From: Alkalihalobacillus sp. LMS39
GTDB taxonomy: Bacteria; Bacillota; Bacilli; Bacillales; Bacillaceae_F
Length of the DNA: 64,000 nt
NCBI RefSeq assembly: GCF_022812285.1
Contig: NZ_CP093300.1
Coordinates: 3,162,001-3,226,000, forward strand
Direction of reading: 5' to 3'
In this document: positions 16,334 through 34,205 of the stretch, piece after piece
How positions within the stretch are numbered: the stretch's first letter is position 1
How the letters are laid out: each line of letters begins with the position of its first letter
Translations under genes and position numbers: made by a program
Notes under the pieces: generated by a model
What the model was told of the DNA's origin: nothing
The model's database searches: none
What the model saw: the letters and a program-made list of their open reading frames with translations, nothing else

Positions 16334-17908
16334 TTAGCGTAGTATTGCTTTTAATTTCTCTCTAACGTGAGTTTCCAGTGCCATTTTCTTTATCTTGCCA
16401 CTAGCAGTCATTGGTAAGTCCTCTAAGAAAATAAAATGATCAGGAATTTTATAGTTGGCTATTTTGCCTTTGACATAGTCTCTCATTGATTGTTCATCTT
16501 CTTGTTGGTTCGGTTTCAGTTTTACTGCAGCACACGTAACCTCTCCTAAGACCGTATCCGGCAAGCCAATAACGGCTACCTCGAGGACACTTGGGTGTTT
16601 ATAAAAGATTTCTTCAATTTCTCTAGGATAAATATTATAGCCACCACGGATAATCATTTCTTTTTTACGGCCTACAATCCGAATATAGCCGCTCTCATCA
16701 ATCGTCGCTAAATCACCTGTATAAAACCATCCTTCATGATCCATCACTTCGTTTGTTTTTTCTTGTAATTGAAAGTACCCTTTCATTACGCCAAAGCTTT
16801 TAATGGCTAATTCACCAACTTCATTGACAGCAAGCTCGTTTCGGTTGGAATCTACTATTTTTGCCATCGCACCAGGCATTACTTTTCCAACGGTTTCAGA
16901 ACGTAGTAGATCATCATCCTCAAAACTAGTAAATGTAACCCCAGCTGATGATTCTGTTAATCCATACGAAACAACAACATCACAGCCCATTTCTGTCCGA
17001 ATTTTCTTGACAATTTCAACAGGACAAGGTGCAGCTGCAATGATTCCTGTACGCAAAGATGATAAGTCGGTATACTTAAACTCGCTATGATTTAGTTCAA
17101 GAATAAACATCGTTGGAACACCATGATGAACAGAAATCTTCTCTTGTTCAATTAGTTTTAACGCTTTATCCGCCTTAAACTGTTCCATAAAAACAATTTT
17201 TCCAGCGGTCGAGATTGCCGATAAAATTCCAGGTACCATCCCAAATACATGAAAAGCCGGCACCGCAACTAAAAACACATCATCACTTGTGCAATTCATA
17301 AACTCTGCTGATACTTTCGAAGTATGAACAACATTTTTGTGCGTTAACATGGCTCCTTTAGGCCTTCCTGTCGTTCCTGATGTATACAAGATGGAAAATA
17401 CATCTTCTACCGGATCAATTGCAATTGCTGGAGCTGGGCGTTTATCACCTAAATCCAATAGTTCAGCATAGGAAGTATGACCTTCCTTTTGAAAGCGGAC
17501 CGTCACGATATGTTCCAGCGCTCCCCCATTACCAGATGCTTTCAAGTATTGGAGCAATGTATCAAGATGTCCAGTTTCCTCTGCAATGAAGGCTACTTTT
17601 GCTCGACAATCTTCAAGAATATAGTCTAGTTCTTCCTTACGATATCGTGTATTACACGGAACTAAAATTGCACCAAGTCTAGCTAAGCCGAAATAAATCG
17701 TCACAAACTCATTCCAGTTTGGTAAGGAAGCAACGACTCGATCTCCTTTTTTTATGCCTAGCTGTGCTAGACCGGAAGCGAGTTGCTGTACATCCTCAAA
17801 AAGTTCTCTGTATGTTAGACGAGAAAGTCCATCATACATGGCTTCTTTATCAGGATAATGAAGATATGCTTCTTCTAAAACCTCAGGTAACGATTGTTTG
17901 TAATTCAA
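16334..17908 (-). CDS. Acyl/aryl-CoA ligase (class I adenylate-forming enzyme)
   Basis: A 524-residue AMP-binding enzyme that activates a carboxylic acid to its CoA thioester via an acyl-adenylate. The motifs are complete: P-loop YTSGTTGRPKGAML (about 175-188), YGLTESSAG (about 312), the GWFYTGDLATIDESGYIRI hinge region (about 390-410) and the C-terminal Lys in PMTASGKIKKMAL. The start is TTG at 17908, with GGAAGGAG eight bases before it; no in-frame ATG fits. It is the last gene of a three-gene unit after a HAD-ECH fusion and a thiolase. Its context next to a gentisate operon suggests an aryl-alkanoic or hydroxycinnamic acid substrate, but a fatty acid cannot be excluded. Confidence 0.88.
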   Translation of the reverse strand: MNYKQSLPEVLEEAYLHYPDKEAMYDGLSRLTYRELFEDVQQLASGLAQLGIKKGDRVVASLPNWNEFVTIYFGLARLGAILVPCNTRYRKEELDYILEDCRAKVAFIAEETGHLDTLLQYLKASGNGGALEHIVTVRFQKEGHTSYAELLDLGDKRPAPAIAIDPVEDVFSILYTSGTTGRPKGAMLTHKNVVHTSKVSAEFMNCTSDDVFLVAVPAFHVFGMVPGILSAISTAGKIVFMEQFKADKALKLIEQEKISVHHGVPTMFILELNHSEFKYTDLSSLRTGIIAAAPCPVEIVKKIRTEMGCDVVVSYGLTESSAGVTFTSFEDDDLLRSETVGKVMPGAMAKIVDSNRNELAVNEVGELAIKSFGVMKGYFQLQEKTNEVMDHEGWFYTGDLATIDESGYIRIVGRKKEMIIRGGYNIYPREIEEIFYKHPSVLEVAVIGLPDTVLGEVTCAAVKLKPNQQEDEQSMRDYVKGKIANYKIPDHFIFLEDLPMTASGKIKKMALETHVREKLKAILR

Positions 17909-17948
17909 TGAACATTCTCCTTCCTAGTCAAGATAGCAACTTTAGAAT

Positions 17949-19148
17949 TTAACCGACCTTGACAAGAATGGCGGCACCATTATCTCCAGCCGCACAGCCT
18001 GTCGCCAGTGCATAGCCTCCACCTTTTTCAACGGTTTCTTCAATCGCTTCAATTAGTAATCTTCCTACTGTTGGAGCTTGTGGATGTCCAAATACTAGGG
18101 ACGTCCCATAGTTATTAAAATGCATTGGATCAATTCCAAGCTCTTTTGCAAAAAACATATCATTGACGATAAACGGACTATGATTTTTGATCGTTGTCAC
18201 ATCATGAATCGATATCCCTGCTCGCTCAAGTGCCATATTCACCGCTGGTACTGGAGCCACTGGCATTGTCGCTTTTTCTGCTCTAGCGTATCCATAAGAA
18301 ATAATTTGAATAGATATGCTATCATTCGTGCTAAGACGTCTCGCATTCTCTTCTGTTGTGACGATCATCCCGACATTTCCGTCCGCTGGATGCGTCTGCC
18401 CACCAAACGAGACAATCCCATTTTCTGCTGTCGGTGTTAAGCGACTTAAGGCGTCTCTTGACGTTTCTGTCACGCCTTCGTCTGTCTCAATAACTCTCAT
18501 TTCTCGTTTTGAGACAGCCACTTCGACCGGTTGCATGTAACGTTTTTGGAAGGTACGATCATTTCTTAAAGCCTCTCCATATTGCTCATATCTACGCAAA
18601 ATGAGTTCATCCGCTTGTTCCTTCGTAAAGCCATGATCTTTAGCCACTCGTTCAGCTGTCATTAACATCCCAATCCCTGTGGATGGATCTTGCGCCATGT
18701 TATCTAAGTTCCAGTTTTCAGAAATGACTTGGCCACCCGGTCCTTTCGGGTTCGGCCAAATCGTATGTGGTCCATTCGAGCAGCGGTCTGTTAGTAAGCA
18801 ATAAGCCGTTTTAATATTGCCAACCTCAACCGCTGATGCTGCATGAAAGACCGAAGTCGTCGACGTCGCGCAAGCATGCATTAGCGTGTGCCCAGGCAGA
18901 TCAGGAGCGCCCATCATCGTTGCTACCCATGATGAACCATAAAAGACACTTTTTTGGCCAACGGTAACACCTAAATAAACATAGTCGAGTTCCTCATTTG
19001 GGTTAAGGCGCTTTGTTTCAAACCATTTTTTACTACTTTTCGCACCTAGCTCTAATGAATTTTCATTTTGCAAGCTGCCTTGCCATTTCACAAAAGGAGT
19101 TGAATAATAACCTCCATATGGTATAAAAGCTTTATTAAACATGCTCAT
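17949..19148 (-). CDS. Thiolase-family acyltransferase (probable 3-ketoacyl-CoA thiolase)
   Basis: A 399-residue thiolase-fold protein expected to split a 3-ketoacyl-CoA with CoA. The nucleophilic Cys is in LMHACATSTTS (Cys about 93). The C-terminal half has NNYGTSLVFGHPQAP (His of the GHP motif) and GCAAGDNGAA in place of the usual C-x-G-x-G motif. The divergence from FadA/AtoB suggests a specialised substrate. The frame opens at a GTG at 19157, but AAGGAAG spacing favours the ATG at 19148. It sits 19 bases after the HAD-ECH gene and 40 before the CoA ligase gene, so the three are an operon for side-chain beta-oxidation. Confidence 0.82.
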   Translation of the reverse strand: MSMFNKAFIPYGGYYSTPFVKWQGSLQNENSLELGAKSSKKWFETKRLNPNEELDYVYLGVTVGQKSVFYGSSWVATMMGAPDLPGHTLMHACATSTTSVFHAASAVEVGNIKTAYCLLTDRCSNGPHTIWPNPKGPGGQVISENWNLDNMAQDPSTGIGMLMTAERVAKDHGFTKEQADELILRRYEQYGEALRNDRTFQKRYMQPVEVAVSKREMRVIETDEGVTETSRDALSRLTPTAENGIVSFGGQTHPADGNVGMIVTTEENARRLSTNDSISIQIISYGYARAEKATMPVAPVPAVNMALERAGISIHDVTTIKNHSPFIVNDMFFAKELGIDPMHFNNYGTSLVFGHPQAPTVGRLLIEAIEETVEKGGGYALATGCAAGDNGAAILVKVG

Positions 19149-19167
19149 ACATTTCACTTCCTTCTAT

Positions 19168-21216
19168 TTAGACTTCTGCCTTTTTAAAGACTGGACGCTC
19201 TCCGTTCATTGAGGCCTTTAACCCGATATGCGCCTCCTCTGTTTCAAAGGTTTTGACTAAATAGCTTAATTCAAGTTCAATTCCCTCATCAATCGTCATT
19301 TCTGTTTGCTGATCAATGAGATCATTAATTGTCTTCATTGCAGTTTGTGCTTTAAAGCCAAGTATTTTCATTACTTTATCTGCAAACGCTTCACTTACTT
19401 GATGTGGTCGCTCACCGTTAATCATACGCTCGACATTTTCATCAGAGAATCCATCGACCATTTCGTTATACGTTGTTGGAATTTCTCTTGTTGCATATTT
19501 TTCTCGTTTCCCTTGCGCAAGCACCATTTCAATCGTTGTTTCGAGGTTCTCCATCTCGGTTAATGCAGTGACAATTCCTAAGTCTTTCGCTGCCGCTGCA
19601 GTCAACGGTTTCCCTGTTAACACAAAATATTTCGATAATTCCTTACCGACATGCTTATTCAATCGCAGCATACCGCCAAGGCCGGGATAAATCCCTAGCC
19701 CACTTTCCGGAAAAGCGAGAGAACCTTGAGCGGTTGCTACAATCGCTTGGCAAGATAGGGCAAGTTCACTTCCTCCCCCAAGGGACAGTCCGTCTAAGAC
19801 AGCAATCGTCATTTTATCTGACGTTTCCATTCTTCTAAACAATTGATGCCCTTTGCGCGTGAACTCCACATTTTTCTCTATTTGATTGCTTTCGATACAA
19901 TCAATAAAAAACTTAATATCCGCCCCTGCCACAAATGCTTTACCAGCTCCTTGAATCGCAATTCCTTTCACATCAGGGTTCTCTTCTGCCTCGTTAAAGG
20001 CCTTTTCTAATTGTTCAACAACTACTGGATTTAAGGCGTTCATCGCTTCCGGACGATTGATTGTAATATAGGCAATGCCATTTTTCGTTTCCATGTCAAT
20101 GTAGTTAAAGGCAAAGGATTGATCCTTCAGAGCATGCTCCTGTAAGATCGTCGGCACATGGAAACTAGAACGTTTCGAATTAAGCTGAGTGACCATCTCA
20201 AGTGCTTCTTTTACACCGACTTTATTGATTAATTCAAACGGACCAAACTTCCATTTTAGGCCAATCTTAGCCCCACGGTCTGTATCCTCAATACTAGCGA
20301 CACCTTCATCCACTTGCGCACCAGCGACACCGAAAACCGTCGCATAAAGGTGGCGATTAATGGCTTCAAATTTGCTTTCATCTATATCCCCACGAAGGTC
20401 CCAATCCTCTTTCATCTCTGTTTGTTTTTGAAGTAGCTCACTAGGAGCATAGAACTCACTAATTTCTTTTGCTAGGTACGTACACGAATGCTCAGCAATT
20501 GGTATTCCTGTCACATTCATTAATTCAAATGGCCCCATACCAATGTCAAACCCTTGTTTTGCCGCCGCATCAATCGTTGCGATATTCGCGACACCGTCCT
20601 GCAACAAATGAACCGATTCATTTAAAAATGGAACAAAATATCGATTGACCGCAAACCCTGGAGAGTCTTTTACGACAATGCACGTTTTATTATGAAGCTT
20701 GCCAATTAATAGAGTTGTTTCAATCGTTTCTTGACTTGTTTCTTGATGCGGAATAATTTCTACGAGTCTATTTTTGGCAGGATGATAGAAATAATGCATT
20801 CCAATTACTCGATCTGGGCGCTTTGTAAATGTCGCTAGTTCTTTTACAAACAAGCTTGATGTGTTCGTTGCAAATATGGTTTTCTCGTCACATATACTAT
20901 CAAGCTTTTGGAACACAGCACCCTTTACTTGCACATCTTCAAACACTGCTTCTACAACAAGATCGGCATCCTTTAACGCTTCATAGGAAGAAGTACCATG
21001 AAGTCGATTTAAAATCGCTTTCACTTGGTCTTCACTAAAAATCCCTCGCTCAACTCCTTCAGCAAGTGTCTTTCTAATACTTCCAATCCCTCGCTCGACC
21101 TGTTGATCTGTGACATCAACTAAGGTAACATCGAGCCCTTCTTGAGCCATTTTTTGAGCAATTCCCGATCCCATATTTCCCGCACCTATAATTCCAACTT
21201 TAAAAGATTTAGACAT
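19168..21216 (-). CDS. Fused 3-hydroxyacyl-CoA dehydrogenase / enoyl-CoA hydratase
   Basis: A 682-residue bifunctional beta-oxidation enzyme in the order dehydrogenase then hydratase, the reverse of Escherichia coli FadB and like Bacillus FadN. The NAD motif GIIGAGNMGSGIA lies at about 8-20, the catalytic His in GMHYFYHPAKN at about 140, and a second dehydrogenase C-domain follows at about 300-385. The hydratase domain (about 400-590) has GAGKAFVAGADIKFF, SLGGGSELAL (oxyanion hole) and PESGLGIYPGLGG. The frame is open from 21300, but the ATG at 21216 has AAGGAAG and gives the normal N-terminus. It is the first gene of the thiolase/ligase operon. Confidence 0.92.
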   Translation of the reverse strand: MSKSFKVGIIGAGNMGSGIAQKMAQEGLDVTLVDVTDQQVERGIGSIRKTLAEGVERGIFSEDQVKAILNRLHGTSSYEALKDADLVVEAVFEDVQVKGAVFQKLDSICDEKTIFATNTSSLFVKELATFTKRPDRVIGMHYFYHPAKNRLVEIIPHQETSQETIETTLLIGKLHNKTCIVVKDSPGFAVNRYFVPFLNESVHLLQDGVANIATIDAAAKQGFDIGMGPFELMNVTGIPIAEHSCTYLAKEISEFYAPSELLQKQTEMKEDWDLRGDIDESKFEAINRHLYATVFGVAGAQVDEGVASIEDTDRGAKIGLKWKFGPFELINKVGVKEALEMVTQLNSKRSSFHVPTILQEHALKDQSFAFNYIDMETKNGIAYITINRPEAMNALNPVVVEQLEKAFNEAEENPDVKGIAIQGAGKAFVAGADIKFFIDCIESNQIEKNVEFTRKGHQLFRRMETSDKMTIAVLDGLSLGGGSELALSCQAIVATAQGSLAFPESGLGIYPGLGGMLRLNKHVGKELSKYFVLTGKPLTAAAAKDLGIVTALTEMENLETTIEMVLAQGKREKYATREIPTTYNEMVDGFSDENVERMINGERPHQVSEAFADKVMKILGFKAQTAMKTINDLIDQQTEMTIDEGIELELSYLVKTFETEEAHIGLKASMNGERPVFKKAEV

Positions 21217-21317
21217 TGTTTTCGCTTCCTTTCCTTCATGGAGTGAAATCCACCATATCAATTCATCTTCCTTTGAATCTAATAATGTAAGCCTTCTCAA
21301 AGTAAAAGGAGTATGAG

Positions 21318-21331
21318 ATGTAGACCTACAT
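21318..21331. promoter_or_regulatory. Short palindrome upstream of the beta-oxidation operon
   Basis: ATGTAG-N2-CTACAT is a 14-bp inverted repeat about 100 bases before the HAD-ECH start. It is a possible operator. Confidence 0.35.
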
Positions 21332-21370
21332 TTATTTTAAAAGGCGTCACTCGCAAAAGGTACATTTACT

Positions 21371-21467: not shown

Positions 21468-23675
21468 TTAACTATTAATTTTATTTGTATAATATAAATC
21501 ATATAGTTTATATGCCATCATTAAATCAAAGCGGTCTTCTGAAGAATCAAGATTCACATGAAGAAGGTTTTGAATTTTTTCTAGTCTATAAAGTAATGAG
21601 CTTCTATGAATAAACAGCTCTTCTGACGTATCTTTAATACTGCCATTATGGGATAAATACACTCTTAATGTTCGGAATAAATCCATGCTTTTCCCTTCGG
21701 AATATTGTAATAACTCTTGAAGCTGCTTATCAATAAAAAGTCTAGCAATGCTTGAGTCTTTTATATTATGCAAGACCGTATACGAACCTAACTCATCAAA
21801 AACCGCAAACCCAATATCTTTAAAACGGTGATAGACAACATTAAGTGCTTGAACAGCTTGCTGGTATCCTAAATAATAATCACTTAGCTTATTTGTTGTC
21901 CCCCCAATCCCTATTAATATTTGACTTGAATCACCTTGGACCTTTAGCCACTTTGTTATTTCTTCATATAATTTTTGCCAATATACTTTTGGGTTTGTCC
22001 CTTCTCGGACAGCCGGCACAATTAATATATTTTCATCACCTTTATTAGCAATAATCATATCTTGGTCGTAAATCAATAGCCTCGTTTTTATTTGGTCCCA
22101 GAGCGTTGATTTTTTAGCTTGCTTTTCAAGTATATTGTTAGTTTGTTCATCTCTATCACTAAGATTAATCGATAGTACCGTCACTCGATGCTCGTTAAAT
22201 AAATTCCAGTTAAACAAATTGGCATATTGAATGATACTTTCTTCATTATCGATAGTCTCCACAAGTAACTTATTAATAAAACTGTCTTTCACGTGCTCTT
22301 TAGTATCTAGAACGAGTTTTTGTTTAATAAACTGGATGGAGGATATATTTCGGGCCAAATCAATGCTTAATTGATAGAAATCATCCATTGCTTCATCAGT
22401 AATATCAATAGCTAAGTACCCTAGTAACTCTCCACCACCATTCACAGGCCATACCCCGACTTTTCTATCTTCATCAACGGAAAAAAAGAGTTCTCGATGC
22501 CTCTTTTGAAAAACCTCGATAGTGGCTAAATCAATAAATGATTGCAATTCCTCTTTATTAAATGCAAATAATTGATAAGAAATCGGTCTCATAAAACGAT
22601 CAAATAAGATCACTGACTTTGAGAAAAGTTCACTTAACGTTGCTGTAATTCCATCGAAACTATCATTTTCTACCGTTTCTTTTACTAATGCCTGTTGATA
22701 ATCCAATAAATTATGTAATCGGTGCTTATGGTCTTTTTCATTTTTATATAAACGAGCATTTTCAATCATCGTTGCTACATGGCTTGATAATAACTCTAAA
22801 ATTTCGCAATCTTCTTTTGTGAAAAATCCGTTTTCTTTGTTTTCTACATGTAAAACCCCAATCGTTTTTAAATCGATTACTAAGGGGATTGTAATCTGTT
22901 GTCCTCCTGGTGTTTCTAAAAAAGGAAAATAATCTTTTAAAACATAATTTCCTTCAACTTCAATTTTCATTATTTGCCCTGCTTTTCCAAATATGGACGG
23001 TTGTAAAACAAAGCAATTTTCTTGCTCATCATACAAGTAGATACATGCAAATTGCGATCCTGTCCCTCTTCCAGCACCTTCTACTACCTTTTCTATCACT
23101 TGATCGAGAGAAGTGGCTATTGATAGATTATTACTTACCCATTCCATTCCAATAATTTTTTGTTTTTGCACTTCTTTTCTTTTCGCTAGTGAAATCGCTA
23201 TCGCTACATCTTTTCCAAATTCAACAAAAACTTCGTCCATTTCTTCTAAAAGAGGGACAAAATTTAGAAAACCAATGATGCAAAAACCATAATTATCGTT
23301 ATCATCTCTTATTGGAACAGTAAACCATGTTGAGATTTTTTTATCTATTAATAACCTGGTAAACTTACACTTCGTTTCTTCATCTACTTTATAAAATGCC
23401 AAACTGTGGTCTAATAAAGTCGGAGAACACTCTCTAACTTTCATTGGAAAATGATTCGTTATAAACGTACACTCGCCACTCCACACTTTGGAAGAAAACT
23501 GATATTCTTCCTCACGTATAATTCCTACAAAATCACACTTTAACTCTGAGCGAAAAGAATCAATTAAATATTGCAATGTTTCCTCTTCTGTATCAAATTT
23601 CACAAGTTGTCGAGCTGTTATTCTCAAATGATTTTCGAGTCTTTGTAGCAGCTTTTCGCGTTTTGTTAACTTCAT
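21468..23675 (-). CDS. GAF-domain transcriptional regulator with PucR-type HTH
   Basis: A 735-residue regulator. Two GAF-like sensor domains (about 15-170 and 185-320) are followed by a linker, a CdaR/PucR-type middle region (about 480-630) and a C-terminal helix-turn-helix of the PucR (HTH_30) type at about 660-725: HNGSIKDTSEELFIHRSSLL, then YRLEKIQNLL. Proteins of this layout sense small molecules and activate catabolic operons. GGGGAG lies before the GTG-ATG; the ATG at 23675 is chosen. Its place between the gentisate operon and the beta-oxidation operon, all on the same strand, makes it the likely regulator of one or both. Confidence 0.85.
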   Translation of the reverse strand: MKLTKREKLLQRLENHLRITARQLVKFDTEEETLQYLIDSFRSELKCDFVGIIREEEYQFSSKVWSGECTFITNHFPMKVRECSPTLLDHSLAFYKVDEETKCKFTRLLIDKKISTWFTVPIRDDNDNYGFCIIGFLNFVPLLEEMDEVFVEFGKDVAIAISLAKRKEVQKQKIIGMEWVSNNLSIATSLDQVIEKVVEGAGRGTGSQFACIYLYDEQENCFVLQPSIFGKAGQIMKIEVEGNYVLKDYFPFLETPGGQQITIPLVIDLKTIGVLHVENKENGFFTKEDCEILELLSSHVATMIENARLYKNEKDHKHRLHNLLDYQQALVKETVENDSFDGITATLSELFSKSVILFDRFMRPISYQLFAFNKEELQSFIDLATIEVFQKRHRELFFSVDEDRKVGVWPVNGGGELLGYLAIDITDEAMDDFYQLSIDLARNISSIQFIKQKLVLDTKEHVKDSFINKLLVETIDNEESIIQYANLFNWNLFNEHRVTVLSINLSDRDEQTNNILEKQAKKSTLWDQIKTRLLIYDQDMIIANKGDENILIVPAVREGTNPKVYWQKLYEEITKWLKVQGDSSQILIGIGGTTNKLSDYYLGYQQAVQALNVVYHRFKDIGFAVFDELGSYTVLHNIKDSSIARLFIDKQLQELLQYSEGKSMDLFRTLRVYLSHNGSIKDTSEELFIHRSSLLYRLEKIQNLLHVNLDSSEDRFDLMMAYKLYDLYYTNKINS

Positions 23676-23961
23676 CACCGCTCCCCTTTCTCTCGTTCAT
23701 ACTAGAGATTTGAGTTTCCTATTAACCTTAAAATTAACAATTTATTTAAAATAATCAGAATAATTATTACAACAATATTGACTTCCCACTTTTGAAACAA
23801 CATTAATAAGTGTGATTACAAGAATATAACATTATTATAATTTATACACTTGGATAATGAAACATTTAGTATAGAGGATATTCTATAGCTTTTCCTTATC
23901 TATGTTTATAAGAATGATAGAGACGAATCAAGTTATTAGCAATCTTTAGAAAGAACAGACA
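23676..23961. other. AT-rich promoter region of the regulator gene
   Basis: No ORF is visible. It should hold the minus-strand promoter for the GAF/PucR gene, as the gentisate operon terminator lies just beyond. I could not assign a clear -35/-10 pair. Confidence 0.3.
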
Positions 23962-24005
23962 GAGGATGTACGAAAAGACCAGTTATGACCTTTTTGTACA
24001 TCCTC
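23962..24005. terminator. Terminator of the gentisate operon
   Basis: GAGGATGTAC (23962-23971) pairs with GTACATCCTC (23996-24005), and the stem extends inward with an A-run/T-run. It lies 22 bases past the stop of the last gentisate-operon gene. Confidence 0.75.
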
Positions 24006-25768: not shown

Positions 25769-25798
25769 ACAAAACATCCTCCCTTTGGATTATTCGTC

Positions 25799-26278: not shown

Positions 26279-27232
26279 TTACCTTCCCACCTTTACCGCA
26301 TTAGTTACGGACTTCACTTTATTTTCTAAGACACCGATCTTGTCAATTTCGATTTGAACAACATCGTCATCTTGTAAAAACACTTGTGGGTCGCGGGCTA
26401 CGCCTACCCCACCAGGTGTCCCCGTGCAAATCACGTCTCCTGGCTCTAGTGTCATAATGCTTGATAAAAACTCTACTAAATAATTGACATCAAATACGAG
26501 ATTCGCCGTATTGGAACGCTGTCTTTCTTCCCCATTTACTTTAAGCACCACCTCTAGCTCATGTGGGTTAGGAATCTCATCTTTTGTGACGAGCCACGGA
26601 CCCATCGGTGCACTTCCATCTAGCGTTTTCCCTTGAAGCCATTGCAGCGTACGTCGTTGTAAATCACGAGCAGTAACATCATTCACAATCGTATAGCCAG
26701 CTACATAATCTAGCGCCTCTTCCTTTGAGACATTTTTAGCTTTCTTGCTAATAACAAAAGTAAATTCGGCTTCATAATCTAATTGTTCCGTCAGCGGTGA
26801 ATTCGGAATATCATCTTCCGGACCGATAATCGCATTATTGAACTTCGCAAAAATCACCGGATATGGTGGAAGCTCGCGTTTCATTTCTAAAATATGTTCA
26901 CGGTAGTTATGTCCGACACAAATAATCTTATTTGGCTTAAGAACCGGTGCTTCGATTCGGACATCGTCTTTCGATAAGACAATTTTCGGATTCGTCGCTT
27001 CCTCTGCTTGAGCGTACTCGATCGCTTTATAAGCTTCTTCTAAACTCTTGTCCCCACCCTCAAGAAATTCAATCGTGTTAGCAGGAACCAATGCTTCTGC
27101 GACTTTTTCTGCTCTCGCCTGCCCTTGCGCTTCTAGCATCGCGACATAAGCACGGTTAAGGTCAATCACTTGATTGCCTACGATGGCTGCAGCTCGAATA
27201 CTTTCTCCTACACGGTAATTTACTAGTTTCAT
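26279..27232 (-). CDS. Fumarylacetoacetate-hydrolase-family protein, probable fumarylpyruvate hydrolase
   Basis: A 317-residue FAH-family enzyme. The family core is visible as ICVGHNYREHILEM (about 105-118), the metal-ligand acidic residues in DYEAEFTFVISKKA (about 150), and DGSAPMGPWLVTKDE (about 203). The C-terminal GDVICTGTPGGVG is also characteristic. In a gentisate operon it should split fumarylpyruvate (or maleylpyruvate) into fumarate (or maleate) and pyruvate. AGGAGGTAAAAA precedes the ATG. It lies 31 bases downstream of the thioesterase gene. Confidence 0.9.
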   Translation of the reverse strand: MKLVNYRVGESIRAAAIVGNQVIDLNRAYVAMLEAQGQARAEKVAEALVPANTIEFLEGGDKSLEEAYKAIEYAQAEEATNPKIVLSKDDVRIEAPVLKPNKIICVGHNYREHILEMKRELPPYPVIFAKFNNAIIGPEDDIPNSPLTEQLDYEAEFTFVISKKAKNVSKEEALDYVAGYTIVNDVTARDLQRRTLQWLQGKTLDGSAPMGPWLVTKDEIPNPHELEVVLKVNGEERQRSNTANLVFDVNYLVEFLSSIMTLEPGDVICTGTPGGVGVARDPQVFLQDDDVVQIEIDKIGVLENKVKSVTNAVKVGR

Positions 27233-27263: not shown

Positions 27264-27686
27264 TCACTTAACTGTTCGTTTAAGTGTGTTAACGGCCTCC
27301 AAAAGTTCTTTTGGGATCGCTATTGCTTTTGGACGCTCCCCACTAAGGTCACACCAGGCACGAATCTCATAACCTGTGGCTACTTCCTTCTTCTCTTTCA
27401 AAAAGGTATGTTCAATCGTAAATACCTTCTCTTTCAGTTCAACTATCATCGAATTTACTGTAACAATGTCATCAAATAAGAGCGGTGCCCTAAATTGACA
27501 TTTAGCCTCGACTATCGGCATTCCTACTTTTCCGACCATGATCAGCTGTGCTGTGGAAAAACCGATCGTCGTCAGAAAATGATGCGTTGCTTCGTCCATC
27601 CACCGATAATAGTTTGGATAAAATACAATCCCAGCTCCATCCGTATCACCAAACTTTACATGAACCTGGTAATAAATCGTACTCAT
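27264..27686 (-). CDS. Hotdog-fold acyl-CoA thioesterase (4-hydroxybenzoyl-CoA thioesterase type)
   Basis: A 140-residue single-hotdog thioesterase. The active-site motif FGDTDGAGIVFYPNYYRWMD (about 12-31) matches the 4HBT/YbgC group, with the catalytic Asp before the AGIVFYP segment. It hydrolyses an aromatic or acyl-CoA. A thioesterase in a gentisate operon implies that the hydroxylated intermediate carries CoA, so gentisyl-CoA is the most attractive substrate; salicylyl-CoA or 3-hydroxybenzoyl-CoA are alternatives. AGGTACAGT lies upstream and the gene starts 23 bases after the monooxygenase gene. Confidence 0.85.
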   Translation of the reverse strand: MSTIYYQVHVKFGDTDGAGIVFYPNYYRWMDEATHHFLTTIGFSTAQLIMVGKVGMPIVEAKCQFRAPLLFDDIVTVNSMIVELKEKVFTIEHTFLKEKKEVATGYEIRAWCDLSGERPKAIAIPKELLEAVNTLKRTVK

Positions 27687-27709: not shown

Positions 27710-28939
27710 TTAATATTTTGTCGTTAGTTCAGGCGGACCTGACTTTGGTCCATATGGGCCTTCATCTAACCATCGTCCCAATCTTGGTACAATTGGTGTT
27801 AGAGACGCTGCTAATTCACGTTTCATGTTCATGTATGCCGAACTTCCTTGAAGATGATTTAACGCTGTTGTCGAACCGTTTCTGTTCCATTCCGCTGCAA
27901 TTTTGCGTTCATTCGCCGCCGCACGAATCGCTTCATTCGCTCCTTCTAGACTGTCTGCGTTTAGTGCTTTTGCAATCCCATTGACGGCAATAATTGCATC
28001 TGGCACACCAGAGTTTAAGCCACGCGCCCCAAAAGGTGCAAAAAGATGAGCAGCTTCCCCAGCAAGAAGAACTTTGCGTTTTTCATCAGTGAACGAGCTG
28101 GCTACAACTTGGTGGAAACGATAGGTCGATACCCACGTAATTCGCTCTGCGTATTTCGCATCCATGACGTTTGGCAGCCATTTTTTCACGCCTTCGATTT
28201 CCGTAAAGTCCTCTGGATTATCGTCCTCTAACAGCTGGAGGTCGACGCGCCATCCCCCTTTAAAAGGAACAAGCATCACATTTCGTCCACCCATCGCTTG
28301 ATGCTGATAATAGAAAACACGTTCAAGTGGTAGTGGATTTTCTTCATCCTCTTTCACATCTACGACAAGAAATGTATCTCTTGTCCTTGGGCCCTCTAGC
28401 TTTAAATCTACCGACTCGCGGACAACGGAACGCGCCCCGTCAGCACCAATTACATAGCTTGTTTCCCACGTATCGCCAGCCTCTGTTGTAATGACAGCCC
28501 CTTCGTCACTTGTTTGCACATCTTTTACCGGAGTACCCCAAATAAATTCCACTCCCGCCTTTAAGCACGCCTCATACATATGGCGCTCAATTTCATCTTG
28601 ATGCAAACTAGTAAAAGGAGGTAGCTTTGTCGGATGGTTCATATCTGTTACTCCGTAGTTTCGAACGTACACCTCTGTACCACGGAACAAGGTACGTTTG
28701 ATTGGCCATGAAACACCATTTCGAGAAAGGGTAAAGCCGAGTCCTGGGCTAATTTCCTCTAAATGAGTTAATGTCGCCTTATGAAGATAGATCGCTCTGC
28801 TACCTGGACGTGGTCGATCTTTTGGATCGGCTTCCATCACAGTTGCTTGGATTCCTTTACTTGATAATGCAAGCGCAGCTGTTAAACCGACGGGGCCTGC
28901 TCCTACTACTATGACTTTTCGTTTTTCACGTCTACTCAT
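27710..28939 (-). CDS. FAD-dependent aromatic monooxygenase
   Basis: A 409-residue group A flavoprotein hydroxylase. The FAD motif VVGAGPVGLTAALALSSKG (about 11-29), the DG motif YVIGADGARSVVRES (about 153-167) and the GD-like motif LLAGEAAHLFAPFGARGLNSG (about 285-305, with Glu instead of Asp) are present. It should put a hydroxyl on a phenolic ring with NAD(P)H and O2, giving gentisate or its CoA ester; 3-hydroxybenzoate 6-hydroxylase and salicylyl-CoA 5-hydroxylase are the closest known roles. The frame opens at 28957, but GGAGG eight bases before the ATG at 28939 fixes the start. It is the first gene of the operon. Confidence 0.88.
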   Translation of the reverse strand: MSRREKRKVIVVGAGPVGLTAALALSSKGIQATVMEADPKDRPRPGSRAIYLHKATLTHLEEISPGLGFTLSRNGVSWPIKRTLFRGTEVYVRNYGVTDMNHPTKLPPFTSLHQDEIERHMYEACLKAGVEFIWGTPVKDVQTSDEGAVITTEAGDTWETSYVIGADGARSVVRESVDLKLEGPRTRDTFLVVDVKEDEENPLPLERVFYYQHQAMGGRNVMLVPFKGGWRVDLQLLEDDNPEDFTEIEGVKKWLPNVMDAKYAERITWVSTYRFHQVVASSFTDEKRKVLLAGEAAHLFAPFGARGLNSGVPDAIIAVNGIAKALNADSLEGANEAIRAAANERKIAAEWNRNGSTTALNHLQGSSAYMNMKRELAASLTPIVPRLGRWLDEGPYGPKSGPPELTTKY

Positions 28940-28985
28940 CCGCTTTTCCTCCAACATGTTTAATTTTTCTTATTCTTTTGACTTT

Positions 28986-29014: not shown

Positions 29015-29204
29015 GGCTAGTTTTCCTCTATGTGGAACACAGAAAATTATTTTTTTAAAACGATGAAAATTCTTTAGTAATCTACTTTTTGAAACATAAA
29101 AAGGCTGCTTGCTTATTCTGTTAAGCATCTGCTTTAGAGCGGTAGCGCAACGTATTATGGTATAGTTAGAATAGGATGATTTGATTAAATGTGAGGGGAA
29201 AAAG

Positions 29205-29936
29205 ATGTATTCTACATTAGAAAATTCGTTACGTTTACTGAAATGCTTCACTTCAGAAGAACCTGAAATCTCACTAACGAATCTTGCAAAGAAATTAAAT
29301 CTCGGTGTAAGTACAACACACCGACTATTAAAAACTCTTGAAAGCGAAGGGTTTGTCCTCCAAAATACGACGAACCAAACGTACAGTCTTGGTGTGTCTG
29401 TATTAGCATTAACGAACACCGTCACCTCGCAAATGAAAATTATCAAAGATGCCAATCCGGTCTTAAAAGACTTAACAACTAGTACAGGTGAAAGTTCGCA
29501 CCTCGGCATTATCGAAGGAACGAGTGTGATTTATTTGCAAAAGATAGAATGTTACTTACCATTAAAAATAGATTCTCATCTTGGAAAAAGAACTCCGATT
29601 CACTGTACAAGCATCGGTCAAGTTCTACTGGCATACCAACAAAAACCATTGGAAGCGGCCCTAAAAAAATACACAAAACAGACAATAACAGACCCAACAC
29701 GTTTCCAGGAGAAATTAGCCCAAATTAGACGACAAGGCTATGCGATCAGTAATCAAGAATGGGATGAAGAGATTTGGTCCGTTGCTGCACCAGTGTACAA
29801 CGCCAAAAAAGAAGTTATTGCTGCCATTGACATTAGCGGTCCTGTAAAACGAGTAACGACCTCCCAACAAGACACCATAAAAAAAGTCATACAGGCAGCT
29901 CAAGCGTTATCTGACAAGATTAAATTACGGAGTTGA
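29205..29936 (+). CDS. IclR-family transcriptional regulator (first of two)
   Basis: A 243-residue IclR-type regulator. The N-terminal winged HTH covers about 5-65 (SLTNLAKKLNLGVSTTHRLL, then KTLESEGFVLQ). The C-terminal effector domain (about 80-240) contains GKRTPIHCTSIGQVLLAY and SNQEWDEEIWSVAAPVYN, the usual IclR sites. The frame is open from 29181, but GAGGGG before the ATG at 29205 fixes the start. It is divergent from the gentisate operon, so control of that operon is likely. IclR proteins commonly regulate protocatechuate and gentisate pathways. Confidence 0.9.
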   Translation: MYSTLENSLRLLKCFTSEEPEISLTNLAKKLNLGVSTTHRLLKTLESEGFVLQNTTNQTYSLGVSVLALTNTVTSQMKIIKDANPVLKDLTTSTGESSHLGIIEGTSVIYLQKIECYLPLKIDSHLGKRTPIHCTSIGQVLLAYQQKPLEAALKKYTKQTITDPTRFQEKLAQIRRQGYAISNQEWDEEIWSVAAPVYNAKKEVIAAIDISGPVKRVTTSQQDTIKKVIQAAQALSDKIKLRS

Positions 29937-29946
29937 AGTAGGTGAT

Positions 29947-30738
29947 ATGATGACAAAGGGCAAGGAAGGACAACTTCTTTCTTCAGTGAAACATGCGATG
30001 CAAATTTTGCGATTATTTAAACTAAATCAGAACGAGCTAGGCGTAACCGAAATTGCAAATAAACTTGATTTACCAAAAGGGACAGCACACCGTTTAATAA
30101 AAACACTGACACGAGAGAATTTTCTAACAAAAAACCCGCGAACGAACCGATACCGTCTCGGTTTATCCCTTCTTACGCTAGGCGGGGTTATTTCCGTCCA
30201 TACAGAAATCTATCAAGAAGCATTGCCCTTGTTGCAATCATTAGTTCATACACTAAAAGAAACCGCACATATATGCCTCTTGGAAAAAACAGAGGTCGTT
30301 TATTTACTGAGGGTTGAGAATCAAGCAACAGTTCCGCTTGTGACAAGAATAGGTCGAAGAAATCCGGTCCACTGTACAAGTGAGGGGTTAGTTATCCTCG
30401 CCTATCAACATGAAGATCGCATCAATCAACTATTAACCACTCCACTTTATCCTTATACATTAAAAACAATCACGGACCCGGACAAATTGAAGTTAGAGTT
30501 GGAGAAAATAAGAGAACGGGGTTATTCGTTAACCGTCGACCATTTTTACGAAGGCTTCGTCAGCATTGCAGTGCCAATTAGAGATTACACCGAAGAAGTC
30601 GTTTCTTCCCTTGCCGTTATCGGTCCGACATCACGAATAACAGAAAGCGACTACCCAATCTTTATTGAGCAGATAAAAAAAGTAGCGGAGCAAATCTCAG
30701 AATTGCTTGGATACTATAAGGAAGATACTAGCTTCTAA
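29947..30738 (+). CDS. IclR-family transcriptional regulator (second of two)
   Basis: A 263-residue IclR-type regulator, paralogous to the gene just upstream. The HTH is ELGVTEIANKLDLPKGTAHR (about 30-50). The effector domain has GRRNPVHCTSEGLVILAY and DHFYEGFVSIAVPIRD. It begins ten bases after the preceding stop with AGGTGAT as ribosome binding site, so the two are co-translated. One may sense the aromatic substrate and the other a downstream intermediate, or they may form a heteromer. A terminator follows. TRAP transporter genes converge from the other side. Confidence 0.9.
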   Translation: MMTKGKEGQLLSSVKHAMQILRLFKLNQNELGVTEIANKLDLPKGTAHRLIKTLTRENFLTKNPRTNRYRLGLSLLTLGGVISVHTEIYQEALPLLQSLVHTLKETAHICLLEKTEVVYLLRVENQATVPLVTRIGRRNPVHCTSEGLVILAYQHEDRINQLLTTPLYPYTLKTITDPDKLKLELEKIRERGYSLTVDHFYEGFVSIAVPIRDYTEEVVSSLAVIGPTSRITESDYPIFIEQIKKVAEQISELLGYYKEDTSF

Positions 30739-30766
30739 GCTTCTTTAGGCTACATCCACTCCCTAC

Positions 30767-30806
30767 CATCGCTTGTTTTTTTCCAAAAAAAGAAAAACAA
30801 GCGATG
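30767..30806. terminator. Bidirectional terminator between the iclR pair and the TRAP operon
   Basis: CATCGCTTGTTTTT (30767-30780) pairs with AAAAACAAGCGATG (30793-30806), giving T-runs in both directions. Confidence 0.8.
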
Positions 30807-30824
30807 CCTGTTTCTCCATGATAA

Positions 30825-31199
30825 TTAACCCTTTCGCATTTTCACTTCCTCCATTACATGGTTACGACGCTCTACTACCTGGGATACAACCAAAATCAGT
30901 AGAAACAGGAGCATAAACAAGACAGAGAGTTGATACATCGGCATAGATCCAAACGAAGATGCGATTAGCCCTAAAAAGATAGATCCACAGACAACACCCA
31001 AAACCAATGAGTTAAAAAACATTCCATTGGCAAGGCATCGTTCTTCTATTGAAACCTTGTTCATCATCCATGCTTGAATCGACCGCTGAAGAATACCATG
31101 CCCACTACCATAAACAACCGCAGACAAAATAACGGAAGAAAGGCTTGTAAACTTGACGAGCGTAAATTCTTTTATCCATAGTTTATCATTTTTACTCAA
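30825..31199 (-). pseudogene. C-terminal fragment of an MFS transporter
   Basis: 124 codons with three hydrophobic segments, matching only the last quarter to third of a major facilitator protein (HGILQRSIQAWMMNKVS, then LANGMFFNSLVLGVVCGSIF and LGLIASSFG). It lacks the other nine or so membrane segments. The only start is a TTG at 31199 without a good ribosome binding site, seven bases after the TRAP large-subunit gene. It is best read as a broken transporter gene at the end of the TRAP operon, although a translated fragment cannot be excluded. Confidence 0.6.
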
Positions 31200-31206
31200 A
31201 CTGCTA

Positions 31207-32514
31207 TTACCCTAGGAGGTTTGGTAAAAATGTCGCAATCTCTGGAACTACCATTAAGAGGGCGATGACAAGGATAATAATAAATAAAAACGGCCAAATC
31301 CCTCTGAAAATCTGCTCAACGGTTACATCCTTAACTACACCTTTAATAATAAACACGTTCACTCCTACTGGTGGTGTAATAACTCCCATCGCAGCGACAA
31401 GAACCATGATTACCCCAAACCAAATTGGATCATATCCTAATGTATTTACGACGACTGGATAAAATATCGGAATAGACAACAGGATTAATGCTAAAGCGTC
31501 CATAAAAAAACCTAATATTAAATAAATGAGCAAAATCAACGCCATGATGACAAATGATGGAAGTATCAAACTTTCAATCCAAGTCCCAAGTTCAAACGGG
31601 ATCCTACTAAGTGTAATGAGTCGTCCAAATACGATTGCCGAACCAATAAGCAACATAATCATCGCTGTTGTTCTAAGAGTATCAAATAAAGATTTCTTAA
31701 GACCGTCCCAACTCAATTTCCTAGTTAAAACCGTGAGTAATAATACCCCACCAGCTCCAATCGCACCTGCTTCAGTTGGTGTAAACCATCCGGCAAATAA
31801 GCCCCCCATTGATAGTGCGAAAATAACAATAACCTCCCAAAGACCTCCTTTAAGAGAATTAAATCTTTCCTTCCATGTGGATTTTTCACCCCGAGGAGCG
31901 AGATGAGGGTTTCTCAATGTCCAAATATAAATCATGACCATAAATAATAACATCAAAATAATTCCTGGAATAATCCCAGCTAAAAATAATTGACCAATCG
32001 ATTGTTCGGCCGCGATCCCATAAATGATGAAAAGCGTACTCGGAGGTATTAAAACCCCTAAAATGCCACCTGCAGCTACACTAGCAGTTGAAAGCGAATC
32101 ATTATACTGATGCTTTCTCATTTCAGGTACAGCAATTGAACCAATCGTTGCTGCCGTCGCAGTGTTTGAACCCGAGATTGCACCAAAAAGCCCGGCTGCA
32201 CCTTGAGCAGCTATTGCTAATCCACCAGGCAAATGCCCTACTGTCTTATAAGCAAAATCAAACAACTTAGCCCCAATCCCAGCATACAAAGCGAGAAAAC
32301 CCATCCAAACAAACATAGGAATTGCACTTAAAGTATAGGTTGAAAAACCAGAATATATTTCTGTCGAAGCTACTCTAAATGCCACAGTCGTTGAATTTAA
32401 TATACTTATCCCGATAATACCAGTGATTAACATCGCATACGATACTGGCATACGTAACGCAATAAAAATAAAAAAGATTAGAATACAAATAAGACCTATC
32501 GTAATCGGTGTCAT
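31207..32514 (-). CDS. TRAP transporter large permease (DctM type)
   Basis: A 435-residue membrane protein with about 12 TM segments, the ion-coupled channel subunit of a tripartite TRAP importer. Typical stretches include AAQGAAGLFGAISGSNTATAA (about 103), GILGVLIPPSTLFIIYGI (about 150) and VITPPVGVNVFIIKGV near 385. Its ATG directly follows the TAG of the small-permease gene, with GAAGGTG inside that gene as ribosome binding site. It works with the DctQ and DctP proteins encoded upstream. The substrate is probably an organic acid; the neighbouring pathway suggests an aromatic acid. Confidence 0.92.
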   Translation of the reverse strand: MTPITIGLICILIFFIFIALRMPVSYAMLITGIIGISILNSTTVAFRVASTEIYSGFSTYTLSAIPMFVWMGFLALYAGIGAKLFDFAYKTVGHLPGGLAIAAQGAAGLFGAISGSNTATAATIGSIAVPEMRKHQYNDSLSTASVAAGGILGVLIPPSTLFIIYGIAAEQSIGQLFLAGIIPGIILMLLFMVMIYIWTLRNPHLAPRGEKSTWKERFNSLKGGLWEVIVIFALSMGGLFAGWFTPTEAGAIGAGGVLLLTVLTRKLSWDGLKKSLFDTLRTTAMIMLLIGSAIVFGRLITLSRIPFELGTWIESLILPSFVIMALILLIYLILGFFMDALALILLSIPIFYPVVVNTLGYDPIWFGVIMVLVAAMGVITPPVGVNVFIIKGVVKDVTVEQIFRGIWPFLFIIILVIALLMVVPEIATFLPNLLG

Positions 32515-33006
32515 CTATTGTTCACCTTCTTTTGTAAATAAGGATAGTACCTTGCCAAAAACTACTAAAGCTAACATCCCAAAACCAATCGCAAGAACTA
32601 AAGCAAATGGATAATGTGGCCATCTAATCGTCGACGAAACTTCTCCAGATAAACGCAAAGAATTGGCGTATAGCACCATATTATAAGTAACAAAAAATAA
32701 AAAAAGTGCAGAAACAGTCCCAATCACAACATCAATTACTTTCTGTACAGGCTTAGGAAGCTTTTCCATAAATACACTAATCGATATATGCCCATCTCCT
32801 ACAGCACAGTAGGCAATGGATAGGGTAATGACCACAGTAGTGAAAAATAGCACTAAATCTAATGTACCTGGGACAGGAAAATTAAATAATCTTCTAGAGA
32901 TGACATTAACTATAATCAACATTGCAGTAAAAAAGAGAACGACTGCTGCAATGTTTTCCAAGCCTTTACTCGCTTTTTTAACGATGCTATTATATCCTTT
33001 GATCAA
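32515..33006 (-). CDS. TRAP transporter small permease (DctQ type)
   Basis: A 163-residue protein with four membrane segments (about 18-40, 50-70, 88-108, 130-152). ISRRLFNFPVPGTLDLVLFF and the AVGDGHISISVFMEKLP loop are typical of the family. It supports the large permease and docks the binding protein. The start is TTG at 33006 with AAAGGGGTGG seven bases upstream; no ATG is in place. It is the middle gene of dctP-dctQ-dctM. Confidence 0.9.
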   Translation of the reverse strand: MIKGYNSIVKKASKGLENIAAVVLFFTAMLIIVNVISRRLFNFPVPGTLDLVLFFTTVVITLSIAYCAVGDGHISISVFMEKLPKPVQKVIDVVIGTVSALFLFFVTYNMVLYANSLRLSGEVSSTIRWPHYPFALVLAIGFGMLALVVFGKVLSLFTKEGEQ

Positions 33007-33083
33007 TTTTTAACCACCCCTTTTTTGAAAAAGGCATCGCACCATCAACATAAGCAATAATGCGATGCATTAACAATATTGTC

Positions 33084-34205
33084 TTAATTACCAAATTCCT
33101 GATTATATTTTTCTGTTAACTCTACAATTTTGTCCATAATTTCTTGCCCGTTATGTCCCGCACTATTTAACTTCTCCACATGTCGGTCTACCAATGGTTC
33201 TACAGCTTCTTGCCAACGCTGTGCTTCTTCTTCAGACAAGTATATTTCTTCCACTCCATGCTCATCAATCGCATACTGAAGACCACCATCAACAAGACTT
33301 GTAAACAATTCGACTGCTTCCTCAAAGGTTTGCTCATTTACTTCTTGAATAGCTTCCTGAATATGAGGTGGGAAGGAATTCCATACATCTTTATTCATGG
33401 TCACGTAATGAACCGTATTATAGATTAAGCTAGAATGAGTAACATAGTTTGTTACTTCCGCCAAATTAAATCCTTTAAGAGTATCGGCAGGTAATAAACT
33501 ACCATCTACTACTCCTCTTGACATCGCTTCATAAGCCTCACTAACAGGCATTGCCACAGGTGTTGCACCTAACATTTCTAACGTTTCAACATTTGTTCCA
33601 CTTGCTCGAATTTGCATACCTCTTAAATCTTCTAAGCTTTTCACTGGAGTTGTTGTCATCAATACCCCAGGTGATATACCGTAAATAAACATCAATTCTG
33701 TGTCTTGTAATTCTTCTGGGTTCAGCGCTTCTACAAGGTCACGTGCAACATAACTTGAAACTGCAACATTTTGATACTCAACGCCCCCCAAATACATAGA
33801 GTTTAAGATTGGCAATCTTCCTGCATTATTTCCTGAAACATCATGCCCAATGTCTGCAATTCCTGATTGAACACCATCATAAATATCACCACCAGCTAAC
33901 AAGGAACCTGCTGGATAAAGCTCAACAGTAACCAAACCTTCTGTAGCTTCATTTATCGCATCTGCCCAACCCGTGAACAAATTTGCATGAGCTGGATGAG
34001 GAGCTGGAAAAAAATCAGCAAAACTTAATGTGACTGGATCCATTGTTTCAAGCACTTCGTTATCAACAGATTCAGCATCAACTTTTTCATTGTCAACGGT
34101 CGAGGAATTCGTATTTTCGCTAGTTTGTTCACCACAGCCCACCATTAATAAAGCGCTTGCAATAAAGAATAAGATTACATTAAAATACTTCTTCTTCAAT
34201 TTCAT
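33084..34205 (-). CDS. TRAP transporter substrate-binding lipoprotein (DctP type)
   Basis: A 373-residue binding protein with a lipoprotein signal (lipobox ALLMVGC, Cys about 24) and an Asn/Ser/Asp-rich linker, then the DctP fold (about 57-370). The family Arg that binds the substrate carboxylate lies in LRGMQIRASGTNVE (about 189-202). GGGAGGTAATAAAA precedes the ATG. It opens the TRAP operon. Upstream a cre-like site lies at 34328-34341. The binding protein fixes substrate specificity, and with no close relative visible here the aromatic-acid assignment rests on the neighbourhood. Confidence 0.92.
   Translation of the reverse strand: MKLKKKYFNVILFFIASALLMVGCGEQTSENTNSSTVDNEKVDAESVDNEVLETMDPVTLSFADFFPAPHPAHANLFTGWADAINEATEGLVTVELYPAGSLLAGGDIYDGVQSGIADIGHDVSGNNAGRLPILNSMYLGGVEYQNVAVSSYVARDLVEALNPEELQDTELMFIYGISPGVLMTTTPVKSLEDLRGMQIRASGTNVETLEMLGATPVAMPVSEAYEAMSRGVVDGSLLPADTLKGFNLAEVTNYVTHSSLIYNTVHYVTMNKDVWNSFPPHIQEAIQEVNEQTFEEAVELFTSLVDGGLQYAIDEHGVEEIYLSEEEAQRWQEAVEPLVDRHVEKLNSAGHNGQEIMDKIVELTEKYNQEFGN

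Follow-up and report, generated by a model that had tools for sequence, protein, structure and literature searches.

A gene region of Alkalihalobacillus sp. LMS39 appears, with moderate confidence, to serve the breakdown of a plant hydroxycinnamate, p-coumarate being the most likely one. The proposed route would run tethered to coenzyme A (CoA) as far as gentisyl-CoA and include an NIH shift. The region occupies 16334-34205 of a 64,000-nucleotide stretch (the window, positions 3162001-3226000 of a single-contig 4.85-Mb genome). A sequence-only reading had placed CoA-dependent side-chain shortening and a gentisate pathway here, and all genes that it named are intact open frames within this range, each with profile support; the corrections concern the dehydrogenase and hydratase, which are one fused protein, and a 195-amino-acid (aa) protein, unk195, and a remnant of a major facilitator superfamily (MFS) transporter, both of which had gone unmentioned. 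The analysis establishes gene families, conserved clustering, active-site residues and a predicted operator; we infer the reactions, all of them, as well as the position of attack on the ring, the thiol cofactor and the compound that is transported.

The proposed route and its enzymes

On the minus strand, a hydroxylase operon encodes, in order, a hydroxylase dependent on flavin adenine dinucleotide (FAD), a hotdog thioesterase, an FAH-family hydrolase, a DinB-fold protein, a bicupin and unk195, with intergenic gaps of 0 to 32 bases. It is followed by a long inverted repeat, a GAF-PucR regulator and then a fused 3-hydroxyacyl-CoA dehydrogenase (HADH) and enoyl-CoA hydratase (ECH), a thiolase and a ligase, with gaps of 10 bases (fusion/thiolase) and 40 bases (thiolase/ligase). 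Two IclR genes are divergent from the hydroxylase, and the genes of a tripartite ATP-independent periplasmic (TRAP) transporter lie beyond them. In the proposed route, the ligase would convert p-coumarate to its CoA ester, and the fused hydratase-dehydrogenase together with the thiolase would shorten the side chain by acetyl-CoA to give 4-hydroxybenzoyl-CoA. This ester would pass unhydrolysed to the FAD hydroxylase, which would attack C1, the position para to the hydroxyl; migration of the acyl-CoA group to the next carbon (the NIH shift) would then yield gentisyl-CoA. The thioesterase would release gentisate, the bicupin would open its ring to maleylpyruvate, the DinB-fold protein would isomerise the latter, probably with bacillithiol, and the FAH protein would form fumarate and pyruvate. 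The TRAP system would serve uptake, the IclR pair would control the hydroxylase operon, and the PucR-type regulator probably the side-chain operon.

The hydroxylase has a single match in its own genome (E<=0.001). Its nearest solved relative, both by sequence (phmmer) and by fold (Foldseek), is PnpA, the p-nitrophenol 4-monooxygenase, and at 22-24% identity this resemblance is to be taken as likeness, not as family membership. The FAD motif, usually GDAAH, reads GEAAH and is invariant in 18 aligned rows from Bacilli; GEA and the His are also kept in the aligned haloarchaeal and Streptomyces relatives. The thioesterase is encoded inside the gentisate cluster, close to the ligase and hydroxylase genes, an arrangement that recurs in relatives, and carries Asp16 and Asp31, which match the active-site residues named for BH1999. 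According to excerpts of PMC516016, BH1999 of Bacillus halodurans C-125 is a gentisyl-CoA thioesterase with active-site Asp16/Asp31, encoded in a gentisate cluster.

The bicupin falls below two curated NCBIfam cut-offs (TIGR02272, 300.8 vs 442.1 bits; NF049978, 322.2 vs 650); naming it by such a cut-off was rejected, and the name "gentisate-type" therefore rests on family and context. In the DinB-fold protein, His47, His139, His144 and His148 are invariant in 18 aligned rows; a comparison with solved structures gave 0 matches. The genome encodes BshC, and the protein is probably a bacillithiol-dependent maleylpyruvate isomerase. For DinB/STL maleylpyruvate isomerases, a mycothiol precedent is cited in the excerpted text of PMC5815605.

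In the side-chain-shortening operon, the ligase finds its best matches among solved structures in 8weu/8wev, which carry the names fatty-acyl-CoA synthase and feruloyl-CoA synthetase. The thiolase keeps the catalytic Cys96, His358 and Cys388, as judged by alignment to solved thiolases, its NEAF region reading NHSPF. The listed TTG start of the fusion probably lies upstream of the true ATG (MSKSFKVGIIG, 21216). The window holds no match to an acyl-CoA dehydrogenase, as expected for an unsaturated side chain. For the TRAP solute-binding protein DctP, 11 solved homologues were found at E<=1e-20.

Conservation of the cluster in Bacilli and beyond

The hydroxylase is sparse in Bacilli yet recurrent, often with the same neighbours. 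At E<=1e-60, 7 of 299 genomes sampled from the order and 11 of 398 from the class gave a match (own genome in both; 4-6 candidates were scored per genome, so absences there are not proof), and a collection of named genomes gave 15 loci from ten genera (Litchfieldia, Metabacillus, Peribacillus, Neobacillus, Bacillus, Domibacillus, Lysinibacillus, Brevibacillus, Anoxybacillus and Halobacillus). The earlier description of the gene set as unusual in a bacillus thus stands as far as rarity goes, but not in the sense of an isolated case.

We surveyed the neighbourhoods of 32 hydroxylase loci of other Bacilli, 9 to 21 kb long and exclusive of the window (L-numbers denote loci of relatives, G-numbers sampled genomes). 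They represent 31 distinct places, as L013 and L028 are the same, and are related by descent, so that counts are not independent. They take in L074 (only 109 aligned residues) as well as L017 and L056 (a hydroxylase in pieces, in L017 with a stop); L032 and L033 are cut by contig ends, and L029/L030 and L032/L033 are same-genome pairs. Presence or absence was judged inside the fetched stretch, which reaches no further than about 10 kb to either side. Ligase, thiolase, HADH and ECH occur all together in 16 of the 32 loci, compared with none of 20 arbitrary 20-kb control stretches from five genomes (ligase in 2, thiolase in 1). Furthermore, the dioxygenase was present in 27 loci, the FAH hydrolase in 25, the hotdog thioesterase in 24, unk195 in 22, DinB in 18, IclR in 16 and a PucR-type regulator in 15. 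Several loci are co-directional runs: L017 reads pucR-HADH-ECH-thiolase-ligase-thioesterase-hydroxylase-unk195, L030 reads hydroxylase-unk195-pucR-HADH-ECH-thiolase-ligase-FAH-DinB-dioxygenase, and L033 is likewise co-directional. Such runs argue strongly that the parts work together. The earlier joining of the beta-oxidation operon with the gentisate operon is borne out by this recurrence across Bacilli, and relatives also share a predicted operator (see below).

The window operon is of a rarer type. Fifteen of the 16 full sets have separate HADH and ECH genes and a conventional thiolase; Halobacillus L034 alone has the fusion, together with a thiolase 26-30% like the conventional one, and carries this set beside the hydroxylase and gentisate genes. 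Relatives of the fusion (66-70%) were found in L018, L019 and L034, and those of the thiolase (73-77%) only in these three among the loci examined. The window-type thiolase occurs in 3 of 299 genomes of the order, own included (E<=1e-80; here too 4-6 candidates were scored per genome, so absences are not proof), in addition to L034, and the window-type operon lies beside the hydroxylase in L034 and on a different contig from it in G211. Since the window ligase is 66% and 69% identical to its counterparts of the separate-gene type at the L016 and L033 loci, the window operon seems to combine the two types.

Beyond Bacilli, hydroxylase relatives lie on plasmids of haloarchaea (46-48%) and Streptomyces (51%), among the 15 of 35 matches listed. 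The Halorussus and Halosolutus regions (two of the three haloarchaeal regions viewed) combine a hydroxylase homologue with cupin, FAH, thioesterase and CoA-ligase genes; on the Halosolutus plasmid (L099, 266-5617 and 9364-19283), ligase, thiolase, fused HADH/ECH, thioesterase, hydroxylase homologue, cupin and FAH stand together. The Haloarcula sp. GH36 region has ligase and thioesterase genes within 15 kb, with no cupin or FAH listed in its incomplete gene tables. Neither DinB nor unk195 had a match in the haloarchaeal plasmid stretches examined. A Streptomyces goshikiensis plasmid (L098, 2812-24857) carries two hydroxylase homologues (43% and 51%) with desaturases in a biosynthetic-looking cluster, where aminodeoxychorismate synthase, aminotransferase class IV and AMP-binding genes suggest a p-aminobenzoate-derived substrate; a literature search on this type of cluster found nothing helpful.

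A CoA ligase of either type is present in 29 of the 32 Bacilli loci (in L015 as a fragment only), the three without being L020 and the above-mentioned L056 and L074. The front ends of relatives consist of a beta-oxidation set with a FadD-like ligase, of a PaaK-like ligase (16 of 32, the matches in L015 and L016 being fragments of 110 and 88 residues), or of both, and 12 loci have the whole beta-oxidation set with no PaaK-like gene in the stretch viewed (L017, L021-L025, L027, L030, L033, L047, L048 and L051). Two genomes, Brevibacillus fluminis (L029/L030) and Anoxybacillus vitaminiphilus (L032/L033), have two hydroxylase loci each, with one copy per front end: those of L030 and L033 do carry a PaaK-like gene, at the second locus (L029 and L032). 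This is expected if each front end feeds its own copy with a CoA ester. The ligase in 29 of 32 loci and the one hydroxylase per front end are the main argument that the enzyme is likely a CoA-ester hydroxylase; the recurrent beta-oxidation set and the motif that precedes hydroxylase, ligase and HADH-ECH in a Halobacillus also make hydroxylation of an aroyl-CoA ester likely. Most known FAD hydroxybenzoate hydroxylases use free acids, as this one would if the thioesterase were an unrelated housekeeping or proofreading enzyme; we consider this very improbable, given the ligase counts, the hotdog thioesterase in 24 of 32 loci, and the thioesterase and CoA-ligase genes near the archaeal relatives as well.

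Inside the cluster, L013/L028, L020-L024, L027, L031, L047 and L048 hold a further pair of dioxygenase (41-48% to the bicupin) and hydrolase (34-45% to FAH), which suggests a second ring substrate or an isomerase-free branch.

Control, ring position and substrate

GAF-PucR relatives at 42-62% stand near beta-oxidation or ligase genes in 12 loci, with weaker ones (26-34%) in L050, L054 and L055. The regions flanking the IclR genes share a motif, often a palindrome, GTTCC...GGAAC. Its best mismatch sum over seven regions, some of them from related genomes, was 17, compared with 22 to 25 in ten shuffles that kept base counts only. A matrix trained on four sites found 12 further sites of at least 17 bits in relatives (duplicate L028 excluded) and 0 in 400 kb of controls, the 17-bit line having been set after the list was seen; the best control sites reached 16.8 and 16.4 bits, and with the line at 11 bits the site densities are nearly equal (84 in 708 kb vs 38 in 400 kb of controls). 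Ten of the 12 precede a cluster gene, the exceptions being L024 16807 and L034 5825. In L034 sites stand before the ligase, the hydroxylase, the PaaK-like gene and HADH-ECH/iclR1 (the last a training site), and in G211 before the ligase and the hydroxylase. Shared IclR control of both operons is thus predicted for relatives only, the window having a site before the hydroxylase alone; a search for a 14-mer shared among the window's own promoters found none that was useful.

With respect to the ring, we lean towards the para position, on the basis of the phgABC route, the likeness to PnpA, the haloarchaeal homologues in a group with 4-hydroxybenzoate degraders, and the p-aminobenzoate-type neighbours in Streptomyces. 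The phgABC genes were reportedly described by Zhao et al. 2018, their host being Brevibacillus laterosporus. As outlined in excerpts of PMC7862547, they convert 4-hydroxybenzoate to gentisate in three steps, in which the CoA thioester is formed, hydroxylated with a 1,2-shift and then hydrolysed; the engineered Pseudomonas of that paper, in the same excerpts, gave no significant gentisate with phgABC. The sequence-only reading had limited the substrate to ortho- or meta-hydroxylated acids, a restriction that we disfavour, as it left para unconsidered although the excerpted PMC7862547 describes a route from 4-hydroxybenzoyl-CoA to gentisyl-CoA with acyl shift.

The surroundings of the operon point in the same direction. 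Directly downstream of the ligase lie a feruloyl-esterase-type enzyme of the BD-FAE family, whose N-terminus is signal-peptide-like by eye, and an arabinofuranosidase; solved relatives of the former include acetyl xylan esterase and a GH43-CE protein. In grass cell walls, feruloyl and coumaroyl groups are esterified to arabinose, and these neighbours therefore fit p-coumarate; the pair may release the substrate of the pathway.

Several findings speak against parts of this interpretation. The likeness to PnpA does not fix the ring position, because whichever hydroxy ester (2-, 3- or 4-) is converted to gentisyl-CoA, the attack falls para to the hydroxyl, 3-hydroxybenzoyl-CoA 6-hydroxylation and salicylyl-CoA 5-hydroxylation included. 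The esterase-arabinofuranosidase pair was not found near other hydroxylase loci (34 Bacilli loci, with one weak 105-aa esterase match in L030), and acyl-CoA dehydrogenases elsewhere in the genome (best 53%) make a saturated side chain possible. An ortho- or meta-hydroxycinnamate or hydroxyphenylpropionate, giving 2- or 3-hydroxybenzoyl-CoA, would be served by the same genes through ordinary para hydroxylation to gentisyl-CoA, with no migration needed, and an acyl-CoA dehydrogenase, as for saturated side chains, lies near the hydroxylase in 7 of the 32 relatives (one a weak 30% match). Even so we hold such a substrate unlikely, since plant cell walls contain little 2- or 3-hydroxycinnamate, the neighbours point to arabinoxylan-bound phenolics, and the CoA route described in the excerpts of PMC7862547 is para.

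Other findings of this kind concern the link between the operons. L020, where the hydroxylase is closest to that of the window (84%), has only a hydratase nearby, in a genome without a full-fusion match. The upstream region of the window's HADH-ECH has no motif (5 mismatches in 15 bases at best), and in G125 the ligase, thiolase and fusion stand side by side with no hydroxylase match. In addition, a relative of the PaaK-like ligase (39%) is encoded elsewhere in the LMS39 genome. The lack of the motif, the G125 operon and this further ligase, together with the PaaK-like genes in half of the hydroxylase loci, including the second loci of the L030 and L033 genomes, would fit two neighbours with two jobs, in which the ligase-thiolase-fusion operon handles another acid and the hydroxylase is fed by another ligase of the genome. 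We regard this as quite unlikely: L017, L025 and L047 have a beta-oxidation set with no PaaK-like gene in the viewed stretch (the rest of their genomes was not searched), the genomes with two hydroxylase loci pair one with each front end, and the fused type shares the motif and the IclR pair with the hydroxylase genes in L034 and G211. On balance, a CoA-tethered route from p-coumarate remains our preferred interpretation.

The orphan protein and relation to known systems

The last gene of the hydroxylase operon, unk195, has no Pfam or NCBIfam match at E<=0.001. Eighteen relatives were aligned (26-50% identity), and its predicted structure is confident (predicted local distance difference test, pLDDT, 89); a Foldseek fold search of PDB gave no match at E<=0.001 (best E 0.05). 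Searching PHROGs and Pfam with the family yielded no assignment, the best Pfam E being 0.00017 to LANC_like; 2 of 19 members match that family, and unk195 of the window scores 13 bits against a cut-off of 23.2. In the order sample, unk195 is present in all 7 hydroxylase genomes and also in G298, beside a hydroxylase remnant. In the class sample, 11 genomes have the hydroxylase, and strong unk195 matches (E<=1.2e-54) occur in the 3 of them whose hydroxylase is at least 67% identical; weak partial matches (E 1.1e-4 to 9.1e-4) came from seven genomes that gave no hydroxylase match. It is absent from L049-L056 (hydroxylase 55-62%), and also from L032 and L033, where the sequence stops inside the hydroxylase or a short way past it. 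Thus, unk195 is specific to one hydroxylase branch. That it is essential to the reaction was rejected, as the more distant hydroxylase loci L049-L056 and the haloarchaeal and Streptomyces regions gave no match. A more specific, distinctly improbable idea makes unk195 a dedicated hydroxylase partner that would take charge of the unstable C1-hydroxylated dienone-CoA and direct the 1,2-shift of its acyl-CoA group. Carbon from p-coumarate would then arrive at gentisyl-CoA without hydrolysis of the thioester at any point.

Streptomyces possesses a salicylyl-CoA 5-hydroxylase route, in which the ring is hydroxylated on the CoA ester and gentisate follows; by description it differs from the module proposed here in its ortho substrate and in proceeding without side-chain shortening. 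By gene content and described chemistry, the window resembles phgABC, as known from the excerpted source, in its neighbouring ligase, FAD hydroxylase and thioesterase genes. There the CoA ester is made from the free acid, whereas in the window the beta-oxidation operon would deliver it. The thioesterase resembles BH1999 in its Asp16/Asp31 pair and its gentisate-cluster setting. Gene content, BH1999 (PMC516016, in excerpts) and phgABC (PMC7862547, in excerpts) together support the earlier proposal of a CoA-ester route via hydroxybenzoyl-CoA and gentisyl-CoA.

Excerpts of PMC10815724 state the conversion of 4-hydroxybenzoate to gentisate for some Bacillus species and for Haloarcula sp. D1, and according to those of PMC4005966, Haloarcula sp. 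D1 degrades 4-hydroxybenzoate and Haloferax sp. D1227 degrades 3-phenylpropionate and cinnamate via gentisate. Haloarchaea thus resemble the window in funnelling aromatic acids to gentisate, the homologous hydroxylase, cupin, FAH and CoA-ligase genes being carried by strains other than D1 and D1227; they differ in the 46-48% identity of the hydroxylase (among the matches listed), in their acetate--CoA-ligase-type genes and in the lack of a DinB or unk195 match in the stretches examined. A keyword search of open-licence literature found no paper combining beta-oxidation and gentisyl-CoA in bacilli. Because the set recurs in other bacilli, the region is a variant of the known gentisyl-CoA routes and not a new kind of system.

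The features are compiled in Table 1. Scans of the window found 52 promoters against 50.6 expected and 15 terminators against 12.0 expected, the inverted repeat not being among the latter. Further along, 39870-42602 encodes a 910-aa collagen-like protein (GPTGVT repeat; exosporium-protein-like by eye) with 58-63% GC in 2-kb windows, compared with 33-45% GC in its surroundings.

Table 1. Features of the locus, in window coordinates
Feature	Position	Strand	Basis or remark
Alpha-L-arabinofuranosidase with LamG domain, outside the range of the sequence-only reading	10773..14531	-	PF22848, PF06964, PF13385
BD-FAE family hydrolase, outside the range of the sequence-only reading	14892..15881	-	PF20434, 187.4 bits
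AMP-forming acyl/aroyl-CoA ligase (FadD-like), proposed hydroxycinnamate-CoA ligase	16334..17908	-	PF00501, 320.8 bits
Divergent thiolase (type A)	17949..19157	-	PF00108/PF02803
Fused HADH-ECH	19168..21300	-	PF02737 + PF00378/PF16113
GAF + PucR-type helix-turn-helix regulator	21468..23678	-	PF13556, PF13185
Long inverted repeat, possible end of hydroxylase operon	23962..24005	-	by eye; absent from terminator scan list
unk195, 195-aa protein of no known family	24027..24614	-	conserved in relatives
Gentisate 1,2-dioxygenase-type bicupin	24647..25777	-	PF07883 (Cupin_2) in two stretches
DinB/STL-fold protein, proposed bacillithiol-dependent maleylpyruvate isomerase	25799..26278	-	PF12867 (DinB_2), 38.2 bits, cut-off 24.8
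FAH-family hydrolase, proposed fumarylpyruvate hydrolase	26279..27232	-	PF01557, 251 bits
4HBT-type hotdog thioesterase, proposed gentisyl-CoA thioesterase	27264..27686	-	PF13279 (4HBT_2), 67 bits
FAD-dependent hydroxylase, proposed hydroxybenzoyl-CoA hydroxylase	27710..28957	-	PF01494 (FAD_binding_3), 165 bits
IclR-operator-like motif, between hydroxylase and iclR1	29021..29038	+	one of four matrix training sites
IclR regulator 1 (iclR1)	29181..29936	+	PF01614/PF09339
IclR regulator 2	29947..30738	+	PF01614/PF09339
MFS transporter remnant (124 aa), between TRAP and IclR genes	30825..31199		
TRAP DctM	31207..32514	-	PF06808, 328.9 bits
TRAP DctQ	32515..33006	-	PF04290, 83.6 bits
TRAP DctP, solute-binding protein	33084..34205	-	PF03480, 150.7 bits

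If our interpretation is correct, bacilli would possess a full pathway that takes a major phenolic of the cell wall into central metabolism and bypasses protocatechuate, and in which an NIH-shift hydroxylation is fed directly by beta-oxidation. Were unk195 to act as a partner of the hydroxylase, it would represent a new protein family of a CoA-tethered NIH-shift pathway. The locus points to a substrate that can be tested, to an operator, to an isomerase that likely depends on bacillithiol and, for an unusual step in the breakdown of aromatics, to an orphan protein family.

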